Shown here in pieces: positions 13,433 to 45,073 of a stretch of DNA of 45,073 nucleotides. The first letter of the stretch is position 1, and the number at the start of each line of letters is the position of its first letter. The translations under genes were made by a program, and so were the position numbers. Origin of the DNA: a virus; IMG/VR virus record IMGVR_UViG_3300044855_000188, positions 1 to 45,073 of that record. One strand, written 5' to 3'. A model generated the notes under the pieces. It was not told the DNA's origin and ran no database searches. It worked only from the letters and a program-made list of their open reading frames with translations.

Positions 13433-14026
13433 CTACCCCCCCGTCCGTATGCGCATTAGTTCGTGCGTGAGGCGTTGCGGGAACTTCTGGTTAATCGTAT
13501 CAGCAAGGTGTTTCAGGACGGTATTGTGCGACATAGCCTTCGGCACTGACACGCTGGTAAGTTGCGTGATCGGGAGGTCGTTTCCATTTTTTCGCAGGCG
13601 CTTATTTCGGTACTGAAATTCGTTACCATTGTACACGCCCCGTGCATATACACCCCGGCCTCCGCTGGGCATATTGGTAATGAATGCCGAACGCACTAAC
13701 TTGCGGGTTCCCATTACGTTCACTGATACCCCGCGTTTTCCCTGCCTTGCCCCAAACCCGATAAGCGGTAGTTTCACACCTTGCGCTAATAACATGCCGT
13801 GCTGCGCGATCTGACGGGCAACAGCGCGGCGTATAATCATAGCCCGGTTCACGTCTCTTGCCCGAATCTTATACACCGTTTGGATTTCACGCCGTGCGGC
13901 AGTTTTCGACTGCTCCAGCGTTCGGTTAATAGCGCGGGCAATACCGACGGCAATACTCTTATCGTTCAGGTCAGAAAACTCCCGTCGGGCGTCTGCAATG
14001 GCTTTTCTTACATTGATTTCAATCAT
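13433..14026 (-). CDS. Minor tail protein Z-like, 197 aa
   Basis: From ATG 14026 the protein reads MIEINVRKAIADARREFSDLNDK...ARAINRTLEQSKTAARREIQTVYKIRARDVNRAM, which matches the lambda gpZ (prophage minor tail protein Z) family, with the Lys/Arg-rich C-terminal half. Family length is about 190-200. It acts at the tail-head interface. A longer frame to 14125 exists, but a TATCTTTG box sits 5 nt before ATG 14026, so the shorter start is chosen. It is separated from the other tail genes and has its own promoter. Confidence 0.75.
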   Translation of the reverse strand: MIEINVRKAIADARREFSDLNDKSIAVGIARAINRTLEQSKTAARREIQTVYKIRARDVNRAMIIRRAVARQIAQHGMLLAQGVKLPLIGFGARQGKRGVSVNVMGTRKLVRSAFITNMPSGGRGVYARGVYNGNEFQYRNKRLRKNGNDLPITQLTSVSVPKAMSHNTVLKHLADTINQKFPQRLTHELMRIRTGG

Positions 14027-14031
14027 GGCGA

Positions 14032-14039
14032 CAAAGATA
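14032..14039 (-). promoter_or_regulatory. -7 box TATCTTTG for the gpZ-like gene
   Basis: The minus strand reads TATCTTTG-tcgcc-ATG, again with a 5-nt spacer. One of the TGTAAAC boxes (14063-14069) falls about 24-31 bp upstream, in the -33 region, so a protein bound there could control the promoter. Confidence 0.6.
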
Positions 14040-14062
14040 CGTTTTTCGCCCCAAAAAACCCT

Positions 14063-14436
14063 TGTAAACGGCCTTTTTTTGAAGTGTAAACAAGACTTGT
14101 TTACACCTAAATGATTGTTAATCAATTATTTATAAACATGTGTAAACAGGTGTAAACAGACCTTCGTTTACACTTTTTTCGCCGTAACTCTTTGATTATC
14201 AGACCTCTTTTATATTATATATTTATTTGTAAACAAATAAATAAATAAATATATCCCCATGGAAAGTTTTTTTAATTTTTAACAATAGGTATAGGTGTAT
14301 ATCTATGTATATAGGGGTATATATTCCTTTTTCTGTTTACATTGTTGACAAAATATGTAACTTGTTGATACTCTAAGCGTAACTGTGTGAATTTTTTTGC
14401 AAACAAAAGCCAAGTGTAAACAGGATTTTGTTTACA
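14063..14436. repeat. Cluster of TGTAAACA/TGTTTACA boxes (operator or iteron array)
   Basis: The AT-rich intergenic region holds at least nine TGTAAAC-type boxes. They are TGTAAAC at 14063-14069; a perfect inverted repeat with 11-bp arms and one central base at 14084-14106 (GTGTAAACAAG / CTTGTTTACAC); tandem GTGTAAACAG at 14140-14149 and 14150-14159; GTTTACAC at 14166-14173; TTTGTAAACAAA at 14226-14237; TGTTTACA at 14334-14341; and GTGTAAACAG at 14414-14423 with TGTTTACA at 14429-14436. The intervening DNA is nearly all A/T with ATAAATAAATAAAT runs. This is the look of a replication origin with iterons or of a multi-operator control region. No gene lies between 14026 and 14535. Confidence 0.75.
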
Positions 14437-14461
14437 TGGATGGGGCTGGATGCCCAAGGGC

Positions 14462-14496
14462 AAAAAAATAGCGCCCTATCTTACGACGGGGCGCTA
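14462..14496 (-). terminator. Rho-independent terminator of the lysis cassette
   Basis: On the minus strand TAGCGCCC (14496-14489) pairs with GGGCGCTA (14476-14469), an 8-bp perfect stem with a 12-nt loop, followed by seven U. It lies 39 nt after the hydrolase stop and would end the lysis operon before the TGTAAACA array. Confidence 0.85.
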
Positions 14497-14534
14497 AGTC
14501 ATGAAACAACTTATACCTAATTCTACTGCTCTGC

Positions 14535-15323
14535 TTATTTCGTTTTGCGGGCGAAGTCGTCACCTGCAATGATCGTTGTCGGAAAAAAGAAATTCGGATC
14601 GGCAATATAACGCGGGTCGCGCCGGCAAAGTTGAATAAACTGTTCGTGCAATATCCACGACCGCCCAACAAGACAGCCTTCCGACCACCAGCCAACGCGC
14701 TCCGGCCTTATGCCTACCCGCGTGCTGTGCTGGTTAATACCCTCCGCCCAGTCCAGCGCATCGCCTGTGCGCTTGCCGTCGCGGTTAGCGTCACGATGCA
14801 CTCGAAGCGGGCGACGTTGCACCAGCGCCGGGTGATTAGGCCCCTGCGTTGCCTGTCGGTGGAACCCCATCTGCCAGACGGCGAACTGCCCGAATTGAAT
14901 ACGCGCCACGCCTCCGCGACGGCGTGCGCCTTCGCTGTTCGTGGCTGCCAGTCCCGGCTCCGTGGTTGCCTCGGCATTGTGTACGATCACCGGGTGATTC
15001 CCGTCCATCTCGAACATGATAACAATCCGGCGGTCATTCCAGCCGTCTATGCGGTCTGCGTTCGGCGTTCCGTCGGAGTCTGCGCCTTCGATGTACACGA
15101 TGTTCACTTCCCCGGCCTTGCGTGCCAGGGCGTAGCCCTTCGCCGTCATGTATTGTACAATGCGCGTTGCCAGCGTCGGCTGCGTTGCCTGCAATTTCAG
15201 CGCGTTGGCGGTCGGCTGCGTTGCCTGTGTTTTCACCGCGTCAGCCGTCGGCTGTGTCGCCTGCGCGTTCCCGGCTCCGGCCTTTTCAGCCTCCCGATTG
15301 AACAACTTATGCGTTTTCCCCAT
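14535..15323 (-). CDS. Peptidoglycan hydrolase-like endolysin with N-terminal repeats, 262 aa
   Basis: Residues ~20-52 are three near-perfect 11-residue repeats (ATQPTADAVKT, ATQPTANALKL, ATQPTLATRI). The main domain (residues ~55-262) has ATTEPG, RIQFGQFAVWQMGFH, VHRDANRDGKRTGD, INQH, WSEGCLVGR and FPTTIIAGDD. I recall this pattern from phage and bacterial proteins thought to cut peptidoglycan; the S/E-x-G-C-L-V-G-R element with an upstream His resembles the His/Cys site of L,D-transpeptidase-type enzymes, so Cys and His are candidate catalytic residues. It has no signal peptide and needs a holin. It follows the spanin-like gene by 3 nt. Confidence 0.65.
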   Translation of the reverse strand: MGKTHKLFNREAEKAGAGNAQATQPTADAVKTQATQPTANALKLQATQPTLATRIVQYMTAKGYALARKAGEVNIVYIEGADSDGTPNADRIDGWNDRRIVIMFEMDGNHPVIVHNAEATTEPGLAATNSEGARRRGGVARIQFGQFAVWQMGFHRQATQGPNHPALVQRRPLRVHRDANRDGKRTGDALDWAEGINQHSTRVGIRPERVGWWSEGCLVGRSWILHEQFIQLCRRDPRYIADPNFFFPTTIIAGDDFARKTK

Positions 15324-16214: not shown

Positions 16215-18851
16215 TTATTTCAGCCGTTCGATCGGCACGCGAACCGCGCGCGATTGGTGCCCCGGCCCGAAGCGGGCAGAAGTGATCTGCACGGCTCCGT
16301 CAATTCGCAGCAACGTTCGCCCGACGGACTTCACCCAGGGGCTGTTTTCGAGCGCCTTCAGCACGGCGTGATGCGATTGCGATACGAAGAAAAAATCTCC
16401 GTCTACCTTGAAGCCCATGCGCAGCAGGCGATCGTGTGCTACCTTGCTCGATATTACGTCATCGAATACCTCGTTACTTGCGATAAGCACCAGTTCGCCC
16501 ACCGTTCGCTCCAGATTCGGCCCGTCCACCCGTACGATCTGATCCGTCAGGCGTGCCAGCAGCACGGTTTCATCCCGTGAAAGGTCGGAACCACGCTCTT
16601 CTTCCCAGTTCTGCCCCTTCACCCATTCCACCGCCGCATCGAACTGGATTTCATTAGACGAAAACAGGCTGTAAGCGCCAGCCAGCAGTGCGCCTAATTG
16701 GTCGCCAGCGCGTTGTTCCCCCAGTTCATACGCGACGGCGTCGGCGAACGTATCGGCGTTGTGAAGTATTACGGGCATAATCGAAACGGTGCGGGCCTGC
16801 AGGCGCTTCACGAACTCAGGCGTAATAATCTCACGGTGTAATACCTTCAGTTTTTCCCAGCGTTCAGCGCGTACGGCGTCCGACGGCTTGTTAAGCGCCA
16901 ATATAGACACGCGGCCCCGATCGGACGCCTGCGTGATCTGCACGCCGATTGAAGCGAATGCGAAGCACGATCTAATCCGGTACATCTGCGCGCGCCCTCC
17001 GGCCGAACCCTTCAACATCACCCCGCCGTCCTCGGCGCTCGAAGCCCGCATCAGGGACAATACCGCCTCCATGCGTTCCCGCGAGCGCTTATCTTCGCCC
17101 TCCGCTTCATCGAACACGATTGGCAGCGCGTCGTTCTTAATCGTCTGCCGGATACCAGCCTCCGATGTTTCCGACTGCACAGCCAGCACGTTGCGCCCGA
17201 GCAAGCGCCGTACGATCTGGTTGAACACCCACGATTTCCCCGTGCCTGCCGCGCCGGTGATCCATACATGCGGCCTCCATTTCAGCGCGCCGCATATTGG
17301 CGCTATTACACACCAGCCGGCAAGCAGGTGCGCATTCACGGGGCGCTCCCAGTTCACCAGCCCCATTACCTCCATCAGCCTGTTAGCCTCCTTATTAGTC
17401 AGCGGGTTTTCCGTCGGAAAAGATAGCGGCGTGCTTGCCTCGTACATATACCGGGTATCTATCCCGCCTAACCTGTGCCGCCGCCCGTCCACCACCAGCC
17501 CGTCGCCGTGGTGTATTACCACGCGTCCGCTATCCATCCATGCCCCGCGTCCGCGCGTGTTCGTCGGCGAATATACCCCCGCCTGATCGCCCTGCCGCAT
17601 CAGCCAATTCATTGCCGTTTCAACGTCGAACGAAGATTTCGATTTTGATTTCGGAAAATACGTCTGCCAATAATCCAGCGGCGCGAGCAGCAGCAGATTG
17701 GGCGCGGTCAGGCTCGAAGGCTTCAGAACATGAACCTGGTGTTGCAGTTCCGAAAAAAACGCATATACCGTCTGTTCGTCCTGCTTGAAAAACCCAAGCA
17801 CCCGGAACGGGTCTTCGCGCATATCTTCCGCATCAGCACCGAAGTCATCAGGCGGTGGGTTGTATTCCAATTCAGGCGGCTCCGGCATTGGCGGCGCGTC
17901 ATCTCCGCCCTGTGTGCTCATACCAGGCGCTGCGCTCCCAGCGTTCGGTACGTTCCCGATATGCGCGCGAACGTACGCAAGTGCCTGGTCGGCCGTCCAT
18001 TCGGCGTCTGCGATATCCCATTTTTCCGGCAATTCCGGCGCGTTCGTAATCCACTTCACCGCCGGGCATTTTTCGCGGATTGCAGCCCAGACGTCAAGCA
18101 TTGCCATTACGCCGGGCGCATCATTGTCAGGCCATATCACGACTTTTCGCCCGGCCAGCGGCCCCCAATCCGTGTTATGCACCGCCCGCGCGCCCCCCTG
18201 CCAGCAGGTTGCAACGACGTGCGGCAGCAGGGACTGTGCGGCGTCGGCAGCCTTTTCGCCCTCCACGATCAGCACCGTTGCTGCCGGATTTCCGGCGATG
18301 CGGTCAAGTTGGTACAGCGGTCTCGGAACGTCGAACCCCTGCCATCGCCATTCACGGCGCGTGCCGTCTGTGCGGAACGTGTACGGCACAATCTGCTTGC
18401 CTTCCGGCGTATCGAAACGGCAGATCAGCCCGTCCAGTTGTCCGTCGGCGGTGCGGTACTCCCATACCCGCGACGGCGCGCCGTATCGGTAATGCACGAT
18501 CTGCCCCGGCGTCGGAACCGGCGTAGCCCGCTGCCATTGCACGGGTTTTTTCCGGTCAATATGCACCTTTTCGGGCGTGTGCGTGTTTAGCGCTTCGCCG
18601 GATAGTTCCGCGACCGCTTCAGGAAATGTCGCGCCCATTTCAGTCAGAAAATCCAACACGTCCCCGGATTTTCCGCAGGCAAAACAGGCGAACACCTGTT
18701 TTTTTTCATTTACCTGCAGGGACGCCTTCGTGTCATTATGGAACGGGCAGATTCCTACCCATTCCTGTCCGCGTTTCGCAAGTGACACGCGCCGCCCGAC
18801 TACCTCGACAATGTCTGTGCGGGCCTTCAGTTGTGAAATTTCAAAACTCAT
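16215..18851 (-). CDS. DNA primase-helicase, 878 aa
   Basis: Residues ~1-85 form a DnaG-type zinc finger (CPFHNDTKAS ... CFACGKSGD). Residues ~190-290 form a Toprim domain (VLIVEGEKAADAAQ, then VIWPDNDAPG with the acidic metal site). The C-terminal half is a DUF927/SF3-like helicase with Walker A (GAAGTGKS, near residue 530), Walker B (PIVFDEAEGED) and SIGVQITQASDRGR downstream. It makes primers and unwinds the phage DNA and is the core replication enzyme. No phage polymerase is seen, so the host polymerase is presumably recruited. It is the last gene of the early operon; the leader is A/T-rich. Confidence 0.92.
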   Translation of the reverse strand: MSFEISQLKARTDIVEVVGRRVSLAKRGQEWVGICPFHNDTKASLQVNEKKQVFACFACGKSGDVLDFLTEMGATFPEAVAELSGEALNTHTPEKVHIDRKKPVQWQRATPVPTPGQIVHYRYGAPSRVWEYRTADGQLDGLICRFDTPEGKQIVPYTFRTDGTRREWRWQGFDVPRPLYQLDRIAGNPAATVLIVEGEKAADAAQSLLPHVVATCWQGGARAVHNTDWGPLAGRKVVIWPDNDAPGVMAMLDVWAAIREKCPAVKWITNAPELPEKWDIADAEWTADQALAYVRAHIGNVPNAGSAAPGMSTQGGDDAPPMPEPPELEYNPPPDDFGADAEDMREDPFRVLGFFKQDEQTVYAFFSELQHQVHVLKPSSLTAPNLLLLAPLDYWQTYFPKSKSKSSFDVETAMNWLMRQGDQAGVYSPTNTRGRGAWMDSGRVVIHHGDGLVVDGRRHRLGGIDTRYMYEASTPLSFPTENPLTNKEANRLMEVMGLVNWERPVNAHLLAGWCVIAPICGALKWRPHVWITGAAGTGKSWVFNQIVRRLLGRNVLAVQSETSEAGIRQTIKNDALPIVFDEAEGEDKRSRERMEAVLSLMRASSAEDGGVMLKGSAGGRAQMYRIRSCFAFASIGVQITQASDRGRVSILALNKPSDAVRAERWEKLKVLHREIITPEFVKRLQARTVSIMPVILHNADTFADAVAYELGEQRAGDQLGALLAGAYSLFSSNEIQFDAAVEWVKGQNWEEERGSDLSRDETVLLARLTDQIVRVDGPNLERTVGELVLIASNEVFDDVISSKVAHDRLLRMGFKVDGDFFFVSQSHHAVLKALENSPWVKSVGRTLLRIDGAVQITSARFGPGHQSRAVRVPIERLK

Positions 18852-18878: not shown

Positions 18879-19271
18879 TTAAAAATGTAACACGCCTACC
18901 TGCTCCGCATCCGTCAGCACCTCCGCAATACCGCCCGCCGTCCGTACCTGCGTAATGAAGTTAATTTGTTCGGCCGTCGGTTTTTTCCCCGGCACTTTCA
19001 CTTCGACGGCTGTGAAAACAGCGACCTTGCGCCCGACCATGTCCGGCGTGATCTCCAACGTAGTCCAGCCGATCAGGTCGCTACTGCCCTCGCACAGCCC
19101 GGCGTGCAACGGCCTTGCTCCATGAAGTGCGACGGTTCCGGCCTCCGTTCTATGTATTAGCCTCCCGGCCCACCCCATACCGACGTTGTTTCGGAACAGG
19201 CGGACGTGGGGCAGGCGTTTTGCCGCTGCGAGCAGGATTGCGCGTAGAGTGTTGGTTTCGGTCATAACCAA
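18879..19271 (-). CDS. VRR-NUC domain nuclease, 130 aa
   Basis: The protein has the VRR-NUC pattern of small stand-alone phage nucleases: RLFRNNVG near the N-terminus, EGSSDLIGW with the metal-binding Asp, AVEVKVPGKKPTAEQ with the E-x-K core, and INFITQVRTAGG. Such nucleases are thought to resolve branched DNA. The stop lies 27 nt upstream of the primase-helicase start, and the start overlaps the kinase gene by 10 bp, which places it in the replication operon. MTETN at 19265 is an equally good start. Confidence 0.85.
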   Translation of the reverse strand: MVMTETNTLRAILLAAAKRLPHVRLFRNNVGMGWAGRLIHRTEAGTVALHGARPLHAGLCEGSSDLIGWTTLEITPDMVGRKVAVFTAVEVKVPGKKPTAEQINFITQVRTAGGIAEVLTDAEQVGVLHF

Positions 19272-19809: not shown

Positions 19810-20616
19810 TTAATCTGTTGTGCAAAAACATTCAATTTCTAAATCTGAATTAAATAGCTCTGGTGCCGTTTTAACCATATATACAAGCCGCTCATAAGAC
19901 AAGCCGTTCCTAAACGTTGCACCAGTCGCATTTTCTTGCTCAACCCACCATCTTACCCGATTCGGCTCCTTTTTAATTATTTCTTTCAATTTAGCCCGAC
20001 TTTTTAAAAAACACATATCGCAATTCCCTAAATAATTCGGAATATTCAAGTCAAAAGACTGCTTGGCCCAAAAATTTAAAACCATCGGCTTTGTTATGCG
20101 CATGTCATAAAGCGGGGCAATAGATTCATAAGGCTCTTTTGAGAAAGCGTTTGCAAGCCGGTTGTATCTTCTCGGCTCATCGTATCGAATGCCAATGGCA
20201 TTATACCACTCGGAAAATCCAAGAGATTGCATAAATTTTTTTATAGGCCTAATTTTTAACTCTGTTGTACAGTATCGGGTAACGGCATTCGGAAGATATT
20301 TTTTCCTTTTTACAAGTTTGGCGTAAGGTTCGCCGTTTCGGCTTGCTGTTTCATAATCAACAACTCTGAAGCCTTCGGGCGTGTCGTCGTATTCCAGCCA
20401 ATGCACTTTAATTCCAAAGTTATTTTCAATGTTTTGCACAAAAAAAAGCGTTTCTTCATGCTCTTTGCCGGTATTTGCAAAGCAAACTATCCTTTGATCT
20501 TCAGGAATATTGTCGCAAATTATTTTCGCCATCATCCCAGAAGTGCGACCGCCTGACATGGAAATCATATAAGGCATATCCATTTTAACGTTGTAATTGA
20601 TTTGTTCCTGTTCCAT
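19810..20616 (-). CDS. PAPS reductase-family (PP-loop) protein, 268 aa
   Basis: The PP-loop ATP-binding motif MSGGRTSGMMAK (near residue 20) and ANTGKEHEETL identify the phosphoadenosine-phosphosulfate reductase/adenine-nucleotide alpha hydrolase family. Cys residues in RYCTTELKIRP and in GNCDMC could bind a metal or Fe-S cluster. Phage members are common, but their substrate is usually unknown; sulfate reduction, tRNA or DNA thiolation are candidates. The gene is visibly more A/T-rich than its neighbours, suggesting separate acquisition. ATG 20616 is preceded by AAAGGATTGAAATC, one of the few Shine-Dalgarno-like leaders in the window; MMHEL at 20658 is the alternative. Confidence 0.8.
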   Translation of the reverse strand: MEQEQINYNVKMDMPYMISMSGGRTSGMMAKIICDNIPEDQRIVCFANTGKEHEETLFFVQNIENNFGIKVHWLEYDDTPEGFRVVDYETASRNGEPYAKLVKRKKYLPNAVTRYCTTELKIRPIKKFMQSLGFSEWYNAIGIRYDEPRRYNRLANAFSKEPYESIAPLYDMRITKPMVLNFWAKQSFDLNIPNYLGNCDMCFLKSRAKLKEIIKKEPNRVRWWVEQENATGATFRNGLSYERLVYMVKTAPELFNSDLEIECFCTTD

Positions 20617-20714
20617 GATTTCAATCCTTTTTTTTGTAAATCTTAATTCGTGCATCACGCGGATCCCGGTTCACAAAGAAGTTATTTTATTGTATTGTGT
20701 GTGTGTATTGTGTG

Positions 20715-25132: not shown

Positions 25133-26602
25133 TCAACTTTTTTTTCCAAGTGTCGGCCAGTTCCAGTCCTGCCCGAAAACCGCGTCGGCAAAATCAGCCC
25201 TTTTCTGCCGAGATTCAAAAACATAACGCGCCCACCCGCGCTTATATCCGCGTTCCTTTTCGATGCGCTCCAAGTCTGCCAGCGTTCGCGCGCGCCCTAC
25301 CTCCCGGCTCTGATTGCGGCGAAGTTGCAGCCGATCTTCGGCGGTAAGTTCCCGCAGTTCGCCGTCGGCCTGCTTCACCTGCCGGCCTTTCCCCTGCACC
25401 TCCAGCCCGCAATAAGGACACGCAGGCACATGCGGCTCGAATACAGCGTAACAGCCCTTGCACATGGTCACGCGCACGTTCGGTTCTTCGCCGTCCTTTT
25501 TCTTTTTCTTTTTCCGTTCCTCGCCGTCCAGGCTCCATGCCCGATCTTCGTCAGGAAGCCCGTGGGTCAGCACGTTGCCGACGTGATCTAATATTACGGC
25601 GCGCTCCTTCCCTTCCATTGTGCGCAGCGCCCGCCCGACCTGTTGCAGGTACAGCCCGGTTGACTGGGTAGGGCGGAGCAGGATTGCGCCAGCGATAGCC
25701 GGAATATCCGTACCCTCGCTAATAATATCGCATGACGTCACAACCTGGACGCTGCCGGTCGCCAGTCCGTTCAATATCGCGGCGCGCTGTGCGTCTTCCA
25801 TCGAACCGTCAACGGCGTACGACTTATATCCGGCGGCCTGGAACTCCGCAGCGACGTGCTGCGCGTGTTTCACCGAAACGCAAAAGGCAACGGCAGGCAG
25901 TCCGTTCAACGTGCGGCGGTAATGTTCGACGGCGTTGCCCGTGATCTGTGGCTTGTCCATGCGCGTTTCGAGTTCGTGCTTATCGAAGTCCCCCATTCGC
26001 GAACGAACCCCGGAAAGGTCAACCCTGTCTTTCGGCACATAGATTGCGGGCTTAACCAGGTAGCCGCCTGCAATGAGTTCGGAGACGGTTGGCCCCATAA
26101 TCAGCGTATCGTACACGCCGCCAGCCGTCACGCCAAGCCCCATCCCGTCGCCGCGAACAGGCGTAGCCGTCACGCCTAATTGATATGCGTTCGGAAATTC
26201 TGCCAGAATATCCCGGTACGTCTTGCTTACAACGTGGTGACACTCGTCGGTAATAATAAGGTCGAACGGCATTTTCCGAAAATAATGCGTTCGCTTCGCC
26301 ATGGTCTGCACCATCGCTACCTGCACCGGTGCGCGATAGTTCGGAGTGTAAGCTGGATTAATTAGCCCCGGCTGGATTCCGGCGCGTTGCAGCGCCTTCG
26401 CGGTCTGCCTGAGTAGTTCGATGCGATGTACCAGGATCAGTATGCGCTTGCCGCGCGCGCTGGACGTGGCGGCGATGTGCGAAAATACGACCGTCTTCCC
26501 CCCACCGGTGGGTAGTACCAGCAGCGGCGAACGCGCGCCCTGTAAATACGCCTGCCGAATTCGCTCAACGGCCGTTTGTTGGTACGGTCTAAGCGTTACC
26601 AT
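25133..26602 (-). CDS. SF2 DEAD/DEAH-type helicase (RadD-like), 489 aa
   Basis: From ATG 26602 (MVTLRPYQQTAVERIRQAYL) the motifs run in order: Q-like start, Walker A PTGGGKT, LILVHRIELLRQ (Ia), TDECHH (II), GVTATP (III), then the second RecA fold with DIISEGTDIPA and QQVGRALRT (VI). A Cys4 zinc ribbon (CKGC ... CPYCG) and a Lys/Glu-rich insert follow. It resembles RadD and phage DNA helicases acting in recombination or replication restart. The start overlaps the HTH gene by 14 bp; the stop is near the 230-aa gene's promoter. Confidence 0.9.
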   Translation of the reverse strand: MVTLRPYQQTAVERIRQAYLQGARSPLLVLPTGGGKTVVFSHIAATSSARGKRILILVHRIELLRQTAKALQRAGIQPGLINPAYTPNYRAPVQVAMVQTMAKRTHYFRKMPFDLIITDECHHVVSKTYRDILAEFPNAYQLGVTATPVRGDGMGLGVTAGGVYDTLIMGPTVSELIAGGYLVKPAIYVPKDRVDLSGVRSRMGDFDKHELETRMDKPQITGNAVEHYRRTLNGLPAVAFCVSVKHAQHVAAEFQAAGYKSYAVDGSMEDAQRAAILNGLATGSVQVVTSCDIISEGTDIPAIAGAILLRPTQSTGLYLQQVGRALRTMEGKERAVILDHVGNVLTHGLPDEDRAWSLDGEERKKKKKKDGEEPNVRVTMCKGCYAVFEPHVPACPYCGLEVQGKGRQVKQADGELRELTAEDRLQLRRNQSREVGRARTLADLERIEKERGYKRGWARYVFESRQKRADFADAVFGQDWNWPTLGKKS

Positions 26603-26783
26603 CGCGCACCTCCTTTTCCCGCTTTTGCAGAGCCGCCTCCAGTTGTGCCAGCAGCGTGAGCGTTTTCGTACCCTTTTTCCAGCGCTCGACAACGCTTCGG
26701 TCAACGCCCGCGTCCATACACAACTGCGTGAGGTTAGTTCCGGCGGCCTTGCACCGCGCCTTCAGATTCTCGATAATGTCCAT
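26589..26783 (-). CDS. Small HTH DNA-binding protein, 64 aa
   Basis: The 64 residues hold a helix-turn-helix of Cro/C1 type (GTNLTQLCMDAGVDRSVVERWKKGTKTLTLLAQLE, residues ~15-50). It is the first gene after the divergent promoter and overlaps the helicase gene by 14 bp. The position suggests a regulator of the early operons, perhaps repressing its own promoter. It lacks any extra domain, so it is more Cro-like than CI-like. Confidence 0.75.
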   Translation of the reverse strand: MDIIENLKARCKAAGTNLTQLCMDAGVDRSVVERWKKGTKTLTLLAQLEAALQKREKEVRDGNA

Positions 26784-43218: not shown

Positions 43219-43850
43219 TATTTTCGCAGATTATATTTAAGATCAAGAGAAATCCAGCGCCCTTCAGTTTCTTTGAACAGATCAACAATCACGGCGTCTG
43301 TCGCCAGCGTTTCCGTACCCTGATAGCGCCGCAAGCGTATCCAATTACGGCTAACGATATCCAGCGTAAAGTTCTGCGTTCCCTGCCTAAATACCAAGCG
43401 CCCGGCGGCGTTTCGCCGGATTGATGCGGTGATGGGAGAGCCGCCGTCAACGCGCATAGTAGCCGGGATACTTTGTAATGAATCCGGCAAAAATTCCTGG
43501 CCAACGGCGTTCTGTACCACGCTAAAATAATCCTGTCCAACAAGCCCGTTGAGCGCCGCGTTGGCCGCCACCACCTGTTGCCGCACCCGGTTAAGCCGTG
43601 CCACCTGTATAGCCTTGTTTGCGGCGTCGGTTGTGGCTGTGAATACCGGCCCGATAATGGCGTTTACCACGCCTGCTGTGTCCGCGCCAAGCGGCGTTTC
43701 TTCGGTCACGATCCGCCCGGATTGAAACGTTGTTTTCGTGACGGTGTAAAAGATGCCGCCCCGGTTTTCATAGGTGACGGCGGTTGTGTCCGGTTGATCT
43801 TGCGCCAACAAGGCAGCCGGGAAAAGGAGAAGGAAAAGGATGTGTTTCAT
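43218..43850 (-). CDS. Secreted fibre-cassette protein, 210 aa, copy B
   Basis: It has the same layout as the left copy: a signal peptide (residues 1-16) followed by a Thr/Val-rich domain. Nine residues differ, clustered beyond residue 80: V to I, T to A, T to S, I to L, S to P, I to M, I to V, I to N and F to K, reading from copy A to copy B. The N-terminal ~80 residues are identical. It starts 15 nt after the truncated fibre-like gene ends and couples to the glycine-rich fibre, so here the cassette appears complete. Function unknown. Confidence 0.75.
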   Translation of the reverse strand: MKHILFLLLFPAALLAQDQPDTTAVTYENRGGIFYTVTKTTFQSGRIVTEETPLGADTAGVVNAIIGPVFTATTDAANKAIQVARLNRVRQQVVAANAALNGLVGQDYFSVVQNAVGQEFLPDSLQSIPATMRVDGGSPITASIRRNAAGRLVFRQGTQNFTLDIVSRNWIRLRRYQGTETLATDAVIVDLFKETEGRWISLDLKYNLRK

Positions 43851-45073
43851 ATTTTAATGTTTGTTTTATCCGCGTTGCATTATAACCCAGTTCGTGCCAT
43901 TTGATACCAGCAGCGCCCACGATCCAGCCGTTGCTGAAAGTATCGCCGTTCCCGCCGTATTGCTGCCAATAGGCAAAACGTTAGACGCGTTTGAGTTCAC
44001 CGCAAAAGCGGTGATATTTTTGATTGTGAGTTCGCGGCCGCTCCAACTTGATGCCGCCGGAAGGGTGATCGTTGTTGTTGCTGTTTCGTCACAAATTAGC
44101 CACGTGGTAGATACGTCATTTGTCATGACGTATGCTGTGGCGTCAGTTGATACGGGCGCGTTGCGACCGAGGGTGCCTTCAATTTGCAACCTGTTTTCAG
44201 GACTTGTGCCGCTACCAATATTTACGTTGCCGTTGTGGTTAATTGTAAATCGTGCACTTCCTGAAGTTGCCCCGTTAGGAATCGTGTTAATTGTAAACCT
44301 CGCGCCATTTGCAGAGGTTGTCCAGTTTTCCGTAGCAACAGCAAGCATGACTACAGATGAAAGGGATGCGAACGCCGTCCCGTTATGGCCACGAAAAGCG
44401 TTTGCGCCCAATACATCTCCATTAAGGCAGGCTGTTGGCGACGCAATAGTTCCGTTCGCGCGGCGCTGGATAATGTTTGCGTTTGCTGTGTATCGCTCTA
44501 CAACGAAGTTTGATGGGTCGCCTGAAACGTTCGTTACAAAGTGAAACTGACTTTGCGGCGAACTTGTCCCAACACCCAGCCTGCTATTAGTCGCGTCCCA
44601 AAAAAGGTTTGTTGATCCGCTTGCCCGCCCATTCGCATCCGCAAAAAACACATTTCCCGCCGTACCAAGTCCCGTACCCGTAGCCGAAATCAGCGGCGTT
44701 TCCCACGCGTCCGCGTCATAATACTCAAACGCCCCATTAGTAGTATTATAGCGCGTCATACCAATAGTAGGCGTTCCCGGCCGCTCCGCCGTAGTCCCCA
44801 GCGGCAACCGCAAAGCGTCCCGGCCAACGATCTGAATGATCGTGTCCGCGCCAGAAATTGACTCTTGGACAATCGTCGAACCCAGCGCCGAACTTGATGT
44901 CCATTTCGGTATCGCGTTTGTCGTTGGCGTTCCCGTGATTGTTGGATGCCCGGTCGTGTTAAGGGCTGTGCCCGACATAGACAAATTACTACCCAACGTA
45001 ATCGCGCTCACATTACCCGTACTACCGCGACCTAACAAATTAGAAGCCGAAAGCGCCACCTCGCTAAGGGTGC
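43232..45073. repeat. Right copy of the ~1.84-kb end-to-end direct repeat
   Basis: This is the counterpart of 769-2610. From about 43694 to the window end I saw no difference from the left copy. Synonymous and missense changes begin near 43689 and grow denser toward 43232. The window ends inside the repeat, so its true outer end is unknown. Confidence 0.95.
43866..45073 (-). CDS. Tail-fibre-like protein, second copy (cut by window edge)
   Basis: The visible ~402 codons equal residues ~274-675 of the left copy at 1403-3430, with no visible change, including the C-terminus LTIKNITAFAVNSNASNVLP and WALLVSNGTNWVIMQRG. The N-terminal part lies beyond the window. If the genome is circular with a 42,463-bp period, this is the same gene as the left one. 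Confidence 0.85.
   Translation of the reverse strand, partial: TLSEVALSASNLLGRGSTGNVSAITLGSNLSMSGTALNTTGHPTITGTPTTNAIPKWTSSSALGSTIVQESISGADTIIQIVGRDALRLPLGTTAERPGTPTIGMTRYNTTNGAFEYYDADAWETPLISATGTGLGTAGNVFFADANGRASGSTNLFWDATNSRLGVGTSSPQSQFHFVTNVSGDPSNFVVERYTANANIIQRRANGTIASPTACLNGDVLGANAFRGHNGTAFASLSSVVMLAVATENWTTSANGARFTINTIPNGATSGSARFTINHNGNVNIGSGTSPENRLQIEGTLGRNAPVSTDATAYVMTNDVSTTWLICDETATTTITLPAASSWSGRELTIKNITAFAVNSNASNVLPIGSNTAGTAILSATAGSWALLVSNGTNWVIMQRG

Follow-up and report, generated by a model that had tools for sequence, protein, structure and literature searches.

We propose that the array of short TGTAAAC/GTTTACA boxes lying ahead of the gpZ-like gene in this phage is probably an iteron replication origin recognised by the phage's own primase-helicase, as in SaPI/PICI and P4. 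This is based on the array itself, its conservation, its association with one family of primase-helicases and its likeness to the repeats annotated as ori and crr in P4, from which we infer binding and unwinding by the primase-helicase, origin activity and any effect on a promoter. An iteron origin is an ordinary kind of element; what is unusual is its setting, and the element belongs to a wider pattern. The original prediction had offered either an iteron-type origin or a multi-site operator, and the comparative evidence favours the origin, leaving the operator as a possible second role, given the box at the late promoter both in this phage and in its closest relative.

The window, by which we mean the whole stretch of 45,073 bases from IMG/VR, holds ten exact boxes between 14063 and 14436 by motif search (starts 14063, 14085, 14099(-), 14141, 14151, 14166(-), 14228, 14335(-), 14415 and 14430(-)), six on the plus strand and four on the minus strand, so that the predicted “at least nine” was somewhat understated. 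Dinucleotide shuffles of the array region gave a mean of 0.20 boxes and a maximum of 2 (n=2000) against the ten observed, and a de novo scan returned the array at an E-value of 6e-10. As predicted, the boxes lie in AT-rich, gene-free DNA (14029-14534), flanked by an endolysin-like gene (14535-15323) and the gpZ-like gene, in a window whose main genes are encoded on the minus strand. The array surrounds the most AT-rich 100 bp and 300 bp of the window, the maximum being 83% AT in the 100 bp starting at 14210-14214. The perfect 23-bp inverted repeat, the tandem 10-bp repeats and the box pair at 14414-14436 that had been described were all recovered, the last as an inverted pair (Table 1).

Table 1. 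Coordinates of the box array, the adjoining late promoter and gene, and the replication genes in the window.
Feature	Position	Strand	Basis
gpZ-like minor tail / tail completion gene, first after the array	13433..14028	-	Pfam PF06763, phrog_27, start aligned with G2
Bacteroidota-type promoter of the gpZ-like late gene, TATCTTTG at 14040-14033, box 14069-14063 at -33	14033..14069	-	
Ten-box TGTAAAC array, candidate iteron origin	14063..14436	both orientations	motif search, shuffles, conserved in G2
Left cluster, six boxes (14063+, 14085+, 14099-, 14141+, 14151+, 14166-)	14063..14172		motif search
Perfect 11-1-11 inverted repeat, GTGTAAACAAG A CTTGTTTACAC, built from two boxes	14084..14106		
Two head-to-tail 10-bp units, GTGTAAACAG twice, spaced one helical turn	14140..14159	+	
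AT-rich core between clusters with isolated boxes 14228 and 14335, candidate unwinding element	14205..14340		
Right cluster, inverted box pair	14415..14436		
Primase-helicase, 878 aa: CHC2 zinc ribbon, Toprim, D5/SF3-like P-loop helicase, C-terminal alpha/beta domain	16215..18851	-	domain and model searches
C-terminal domain, aa 735-878, proposed box reader	16215..16649	-	model pLDDT 86.8
VRR-NUC gene, replication module	18879..19271	-	PF08774
ResIII / Helicase_C-type DNA helicase, replication module	25133..26704	-	domain search

The search for conserved boxes in relatives, put forward as a check in the original prediction, found the array at the same position in the closest relative, G2 (IMGVR_UViG_3300045534_000075; 45,933 bp), which is syntenic throughout and has a TerL about 79% identical. 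The same gap in G2 carries 13 TGTAAAC boxes, 11 of them within 355 bp, around an AT-rich core. Protein comparison found no counterpart in G2 of the PAPS reductase-like gene of the window (19810-20658), and a DNA-level phage search returned only one 102-bp match. Within the window, TGTAAAC occurs outside the array only twice, both times in the repeated end region, where 761-2610 and 43224-45073 repeat each other (97.8% by way of a longer contig). This repeat implies a unit of about 42,463 bp; the record has an over-long end or holds two strain versions of a tail gene region. IMGVR_UViG_3300035663_000004 (G001; L022-L026; 87.5 kb) joins a 42.5-kb part identical to the window phage (100%) to about 44.5 kb of different sequence with a GC content of 0.43-0.50, and is probably a chimeric assembly.

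The candidate ligand of the boxes is the primase-helicase encoded 1.8 kb from the array, with three genes between; that it would bind them is argued from the comparisons below. Its full-length model (mean pLDDT 73) matched DnaG primases and D5/E5/SF3 helicases in Foldseek, including the SaPI primase-helicase structures 7ola and 7pds, and the window thus encodes a primase-helicase of the D5/SF3 type, the type that serves as initiator at PICI/SaPI origins. The C-terminal domain, modelled with confidence on its own, shows a winged-helix-like order of helices and strands, with no significant Foldseek match in the PDB; this leaves its DNA-binding fold putative and counts against the origin reading.

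To compare phages, loci were gathered via the primase-helicase, TerL, the portal and named phages, and were examined with a scanner for mixed-orientation, irregularly spaced 6-8-mers over-represented against the local dinucleotide expectation. In the 79 test loci, which were found only via the C-terminal half of the primase-helicase, arrays were detected at E<1e-2 in 40 against 1 in dinucleotide block shuffles, and at E<1e-3 in 36 against 0. The other 39 have no array detectable by the scanner, some of them ending short there, and this counts against the origin reading. After removal of near-duplicates, 14 of 23 arrays lay 0-800 bp 3' of the primase-helicase gene, where the expected fraction is 6% (p=7.5e-12). 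In Bdellovibrio phage phi1422, for example, GGTAACA occurs 11 times, the first box 10 bp past the primase gene, with TerL following 7.5 kb later, and the scanner also found arrays in the named phages Acjo_20 (5' of its primase gene), ZRG1, MQ-4, KLER1-1 and S-H1. Loci with only a CHC2 primase, first meant as controls, were not negative, several of them having arrays close to the primase; the comparison was therefore made with shuffles and TerL-only loci. The scanner found no comparable array in TerL relatives that apparently have no primase-helicase (L006-L013, RcOceanus and W8red 2), and TerL proteins beside arrays are of several types: phrog_15, the type of the window, phrog_9 (L236) and phrog_2 (L247), the last accompanying TGTAAACA boxes like those of the window. 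What the array follows is not one terminase type but the fusion of a DnaG-type primase with a D5/SF3-type helicase. Nearly all matches in a genome-contig scan with the primase alignment were limited to the initial zinc ribbon, as is the case for cellular DnaG primases, with one long relative (L126).

Several other repeats were seen along the way. More distant CHC2 primase genes (L044, L046, L077 and L043) are followed directly on their 3' side by arrays of GTGTGCA, CTTCCCA or AGTAAAC, and a second array, AATGCAAT seven times, adjoins a TGTAAC array 3' of the primase gene in L038 (5429-5582) and L218 (1935-2088). In phage AcaML1 (L288, 7169-7507), six copies of GGTTTCCA, possibly another origin, lie downstream of the primase gene at a distance of 5.5 kb from TerS, and in L032 (15481-15697) a unit near TCAGAAAATATTTTAACACTTTTTTT is repeated eight times in tandem at the end of a contig.

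The box word itself varies by phage (TGTAAAC, TGTAACC, TGTTACC, TGTCAAC, TGTAGGC, TGTTTGC, TGTTGCA and others), with TGT present in 30 of the 41 box groups; this count was made in hindsight, over groups that are not fully independent. If the C-terminal domain read the boxes, the two might be expected to vary together; the correlation between box similarity and C-terminal similarity, corrected for the helicase core, is weak (partial r 0.12, p=0.05), a point against the origin reading.

How does the array compare with known systems? In PICI origins two iteron sets flank an AT-rich region, the whole directly following the 3' end of the initiator gene (PMC6092414), and the C-terminal domain of SaPI Rep reads iterons downstream (PMC7581432). 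The window shares with them short iterons grouped in sets that surround an AT-rich region (six boxes on the left, two on the right and two isolated in the core) and, as its proposed initiator, a phage-family primase-helicase (PMC6092414; PMC7581432). It differs in belonging to a full-size tailed phage and not a satellite, in the DnaG-type primase half of its protein, in the overlap of the array with a late promoter, and in the distance from the initiator gene, which is not immediately adjacent here as it is, within 800 bp, in the majority of the non-redundant relatives. In P4, where the scanner recovered both sites, the annotated type 1 repeats of ori are TGTTCACC and crr lies directly 3' of the alpha gene, as do the arrays of many relatives. 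Both phages have boxes of about 8 bp in both orientations, TGTTCACC in P4 and TGTAAACA in the window, although the latter agrees with the P4 type 1 repeat (GGTGAACA / TGTTCACC) only in TGT and a later AC, and P4 has two separated sites. Sequence and profile comparison aligned the P4 alpha protein with the window helicase only around the P-loop, which again weighs against the origin reading. In the VapE-type phages L111 and L115, too, the 3' end of the primase-helicase gene is accompanied by an array of boxes whose core is free of genes, but the helicase is of the VapE family, the boxes are TGTAACCA and TGTCAT, and the array lies within the replication module. Iteron plasmids of the RepA/RepE type also have repeated short sites adjoining an AT-rich region; such plasmids usually carry direct repeats of greater length, whose reader is a Rep protein that has no helicase activity, whereas the boxes of the window are short and of mixed orientation and their candidate reader is a helicase.

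The GC-skew change by which a bidirectional origin is recognised, and which the original prediction had proposed to look for, is not seen at the array site in the window. This speaks against an origin, but a switch may be lacking where every gene is on the same strand, and skew is uninformative here. In Acjo_20 the minimum of the detrended GC skew does fall close to the array, and in P4 it falls in crr. A further difficulty is distance, the array lying apart from the primase gene in the window, further away in G2 and about 12 kb away in PY223.

Could the boxes instead be a multi-site operator, at which a phage regulator controls, positively or negatively, the promoter from which the gpZ-like and packaging genes are expressed? 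We consider this unlikely as their main function, although the late promoter gives it some substance. The gpZ-like start at ATG 14028 aligns with that of the homologue, so that the mechanically listed TTG start at 14125 is not needed, and the TATCTTTG element stands 11 nt before this ATG. The pattern TAnnTTTG has six matches, against 0.8 expected, in the 60-bp regions upstream of the 49 gene starts of the window, an enrichment which suggests a Bacteroidota host. As had been predicted, a box covers the -33 region of this promoter, and it lies 23 nt upstream of TAnnTTTG in the window and 25 nt upstream in G2 (TAATTTTG), the conserved placement at a promoter that a late-operon operator would have. 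Moreover, in each of five phages whose boxes differ (the window, G2, ZRG1, PY223 and L226), the array lies immediately upstream of the gpZ-like gene, an arrangement that also suits a late-operon role. Against an operator, phi1422 has its array beside the primase gene and far from TerL, those of L111 and L115 are inside the replication module, and that of Acjo_20 is on the other side of the primase gene; up to 13 boxes and an AT-rich core exceed the need of one promoter, and the two other TGTAAAC copies of the window are not at the promoters checked.

A role in packaging initiation, with the gpNu1-like small terminase binding the boxes, appears improbable. The window TerL does belong to the lambda gpA group (phrog_15); in lambda, cos lies between lysis-type and packaging genes, a position comparable to that of the array, and cosB too consists of repeated protein-binding sites upstream of terminase genes. 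The arrays, however, are not tied to one terminase type, since loci with phrog_2 and phrog_9 TerL proteins have them and the TerL relatives L006-L013 and RcOceanus have none comparable near TerS; in L111 TerS is 3 kb from the array, and the type 1 repeats of P4 are annotated as ori and crr features. With several terminase families beside arrays, the TerS-like protein that had been named as a ligand is not favoured. The ParB-like protein, also named, is encoded two genes downstream of the array, but it has no counterpart in G2, which has maintained the array, and we have rejected it as the ligand. As the box sequence varies by phage, a phage-encoded reader fits better than DnaA or another host factor, and a site for either a partition-like ParB or a host factor is therefore very improbable indeed.

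In light of the array being a probable origin, how might it work? The primase-helicase would bind boxes on both sides of the core through its C-terminal domain, the AT-rich core would then melt, and the protein would load itself and prime DNA synthesis, in the way described for P4 alpha and the Rep proteins of SaPIs and PICIs (PMC6092414; PMC7581432). In the window lineage, the origin would no longer lie by the initiator gene, having shifted to the start of the late operon; its occupancy there may also affect transcription through the box at the late promoter; the position of the array before the gpZ-like gene in five phages, together with the box at the promoter in the window and G2, makes such a second role possible.

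Arrays of this kind with a primase-helicase have been described before mainly for small phage satellites, and our comparison suggests that full-size phages share the arrangement; in the literature searched, no description of the wider pattern in full-size phages was found. More tentatively, iterons of the form “TGT + four or five variable bases” around an AT-rich core could be a widespread class of origin in full-size tailed phages, read by a fast-changing C-terminal domain of the primase-helicase. Since each phage has its own box word, such origins would be private to their phage, and that of the window lineage would be joined to a late promoter. Origin annotation is absent from most of the phage records examined, and, if the pattern holds, the origins of phages with a primase-helicase could be located by computer, while the pairs of initiator and box over many phages would provide a natural data set for a recognition code. 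If the whole proposal is true, the binding of the initiator in the window lineage could time late expression.
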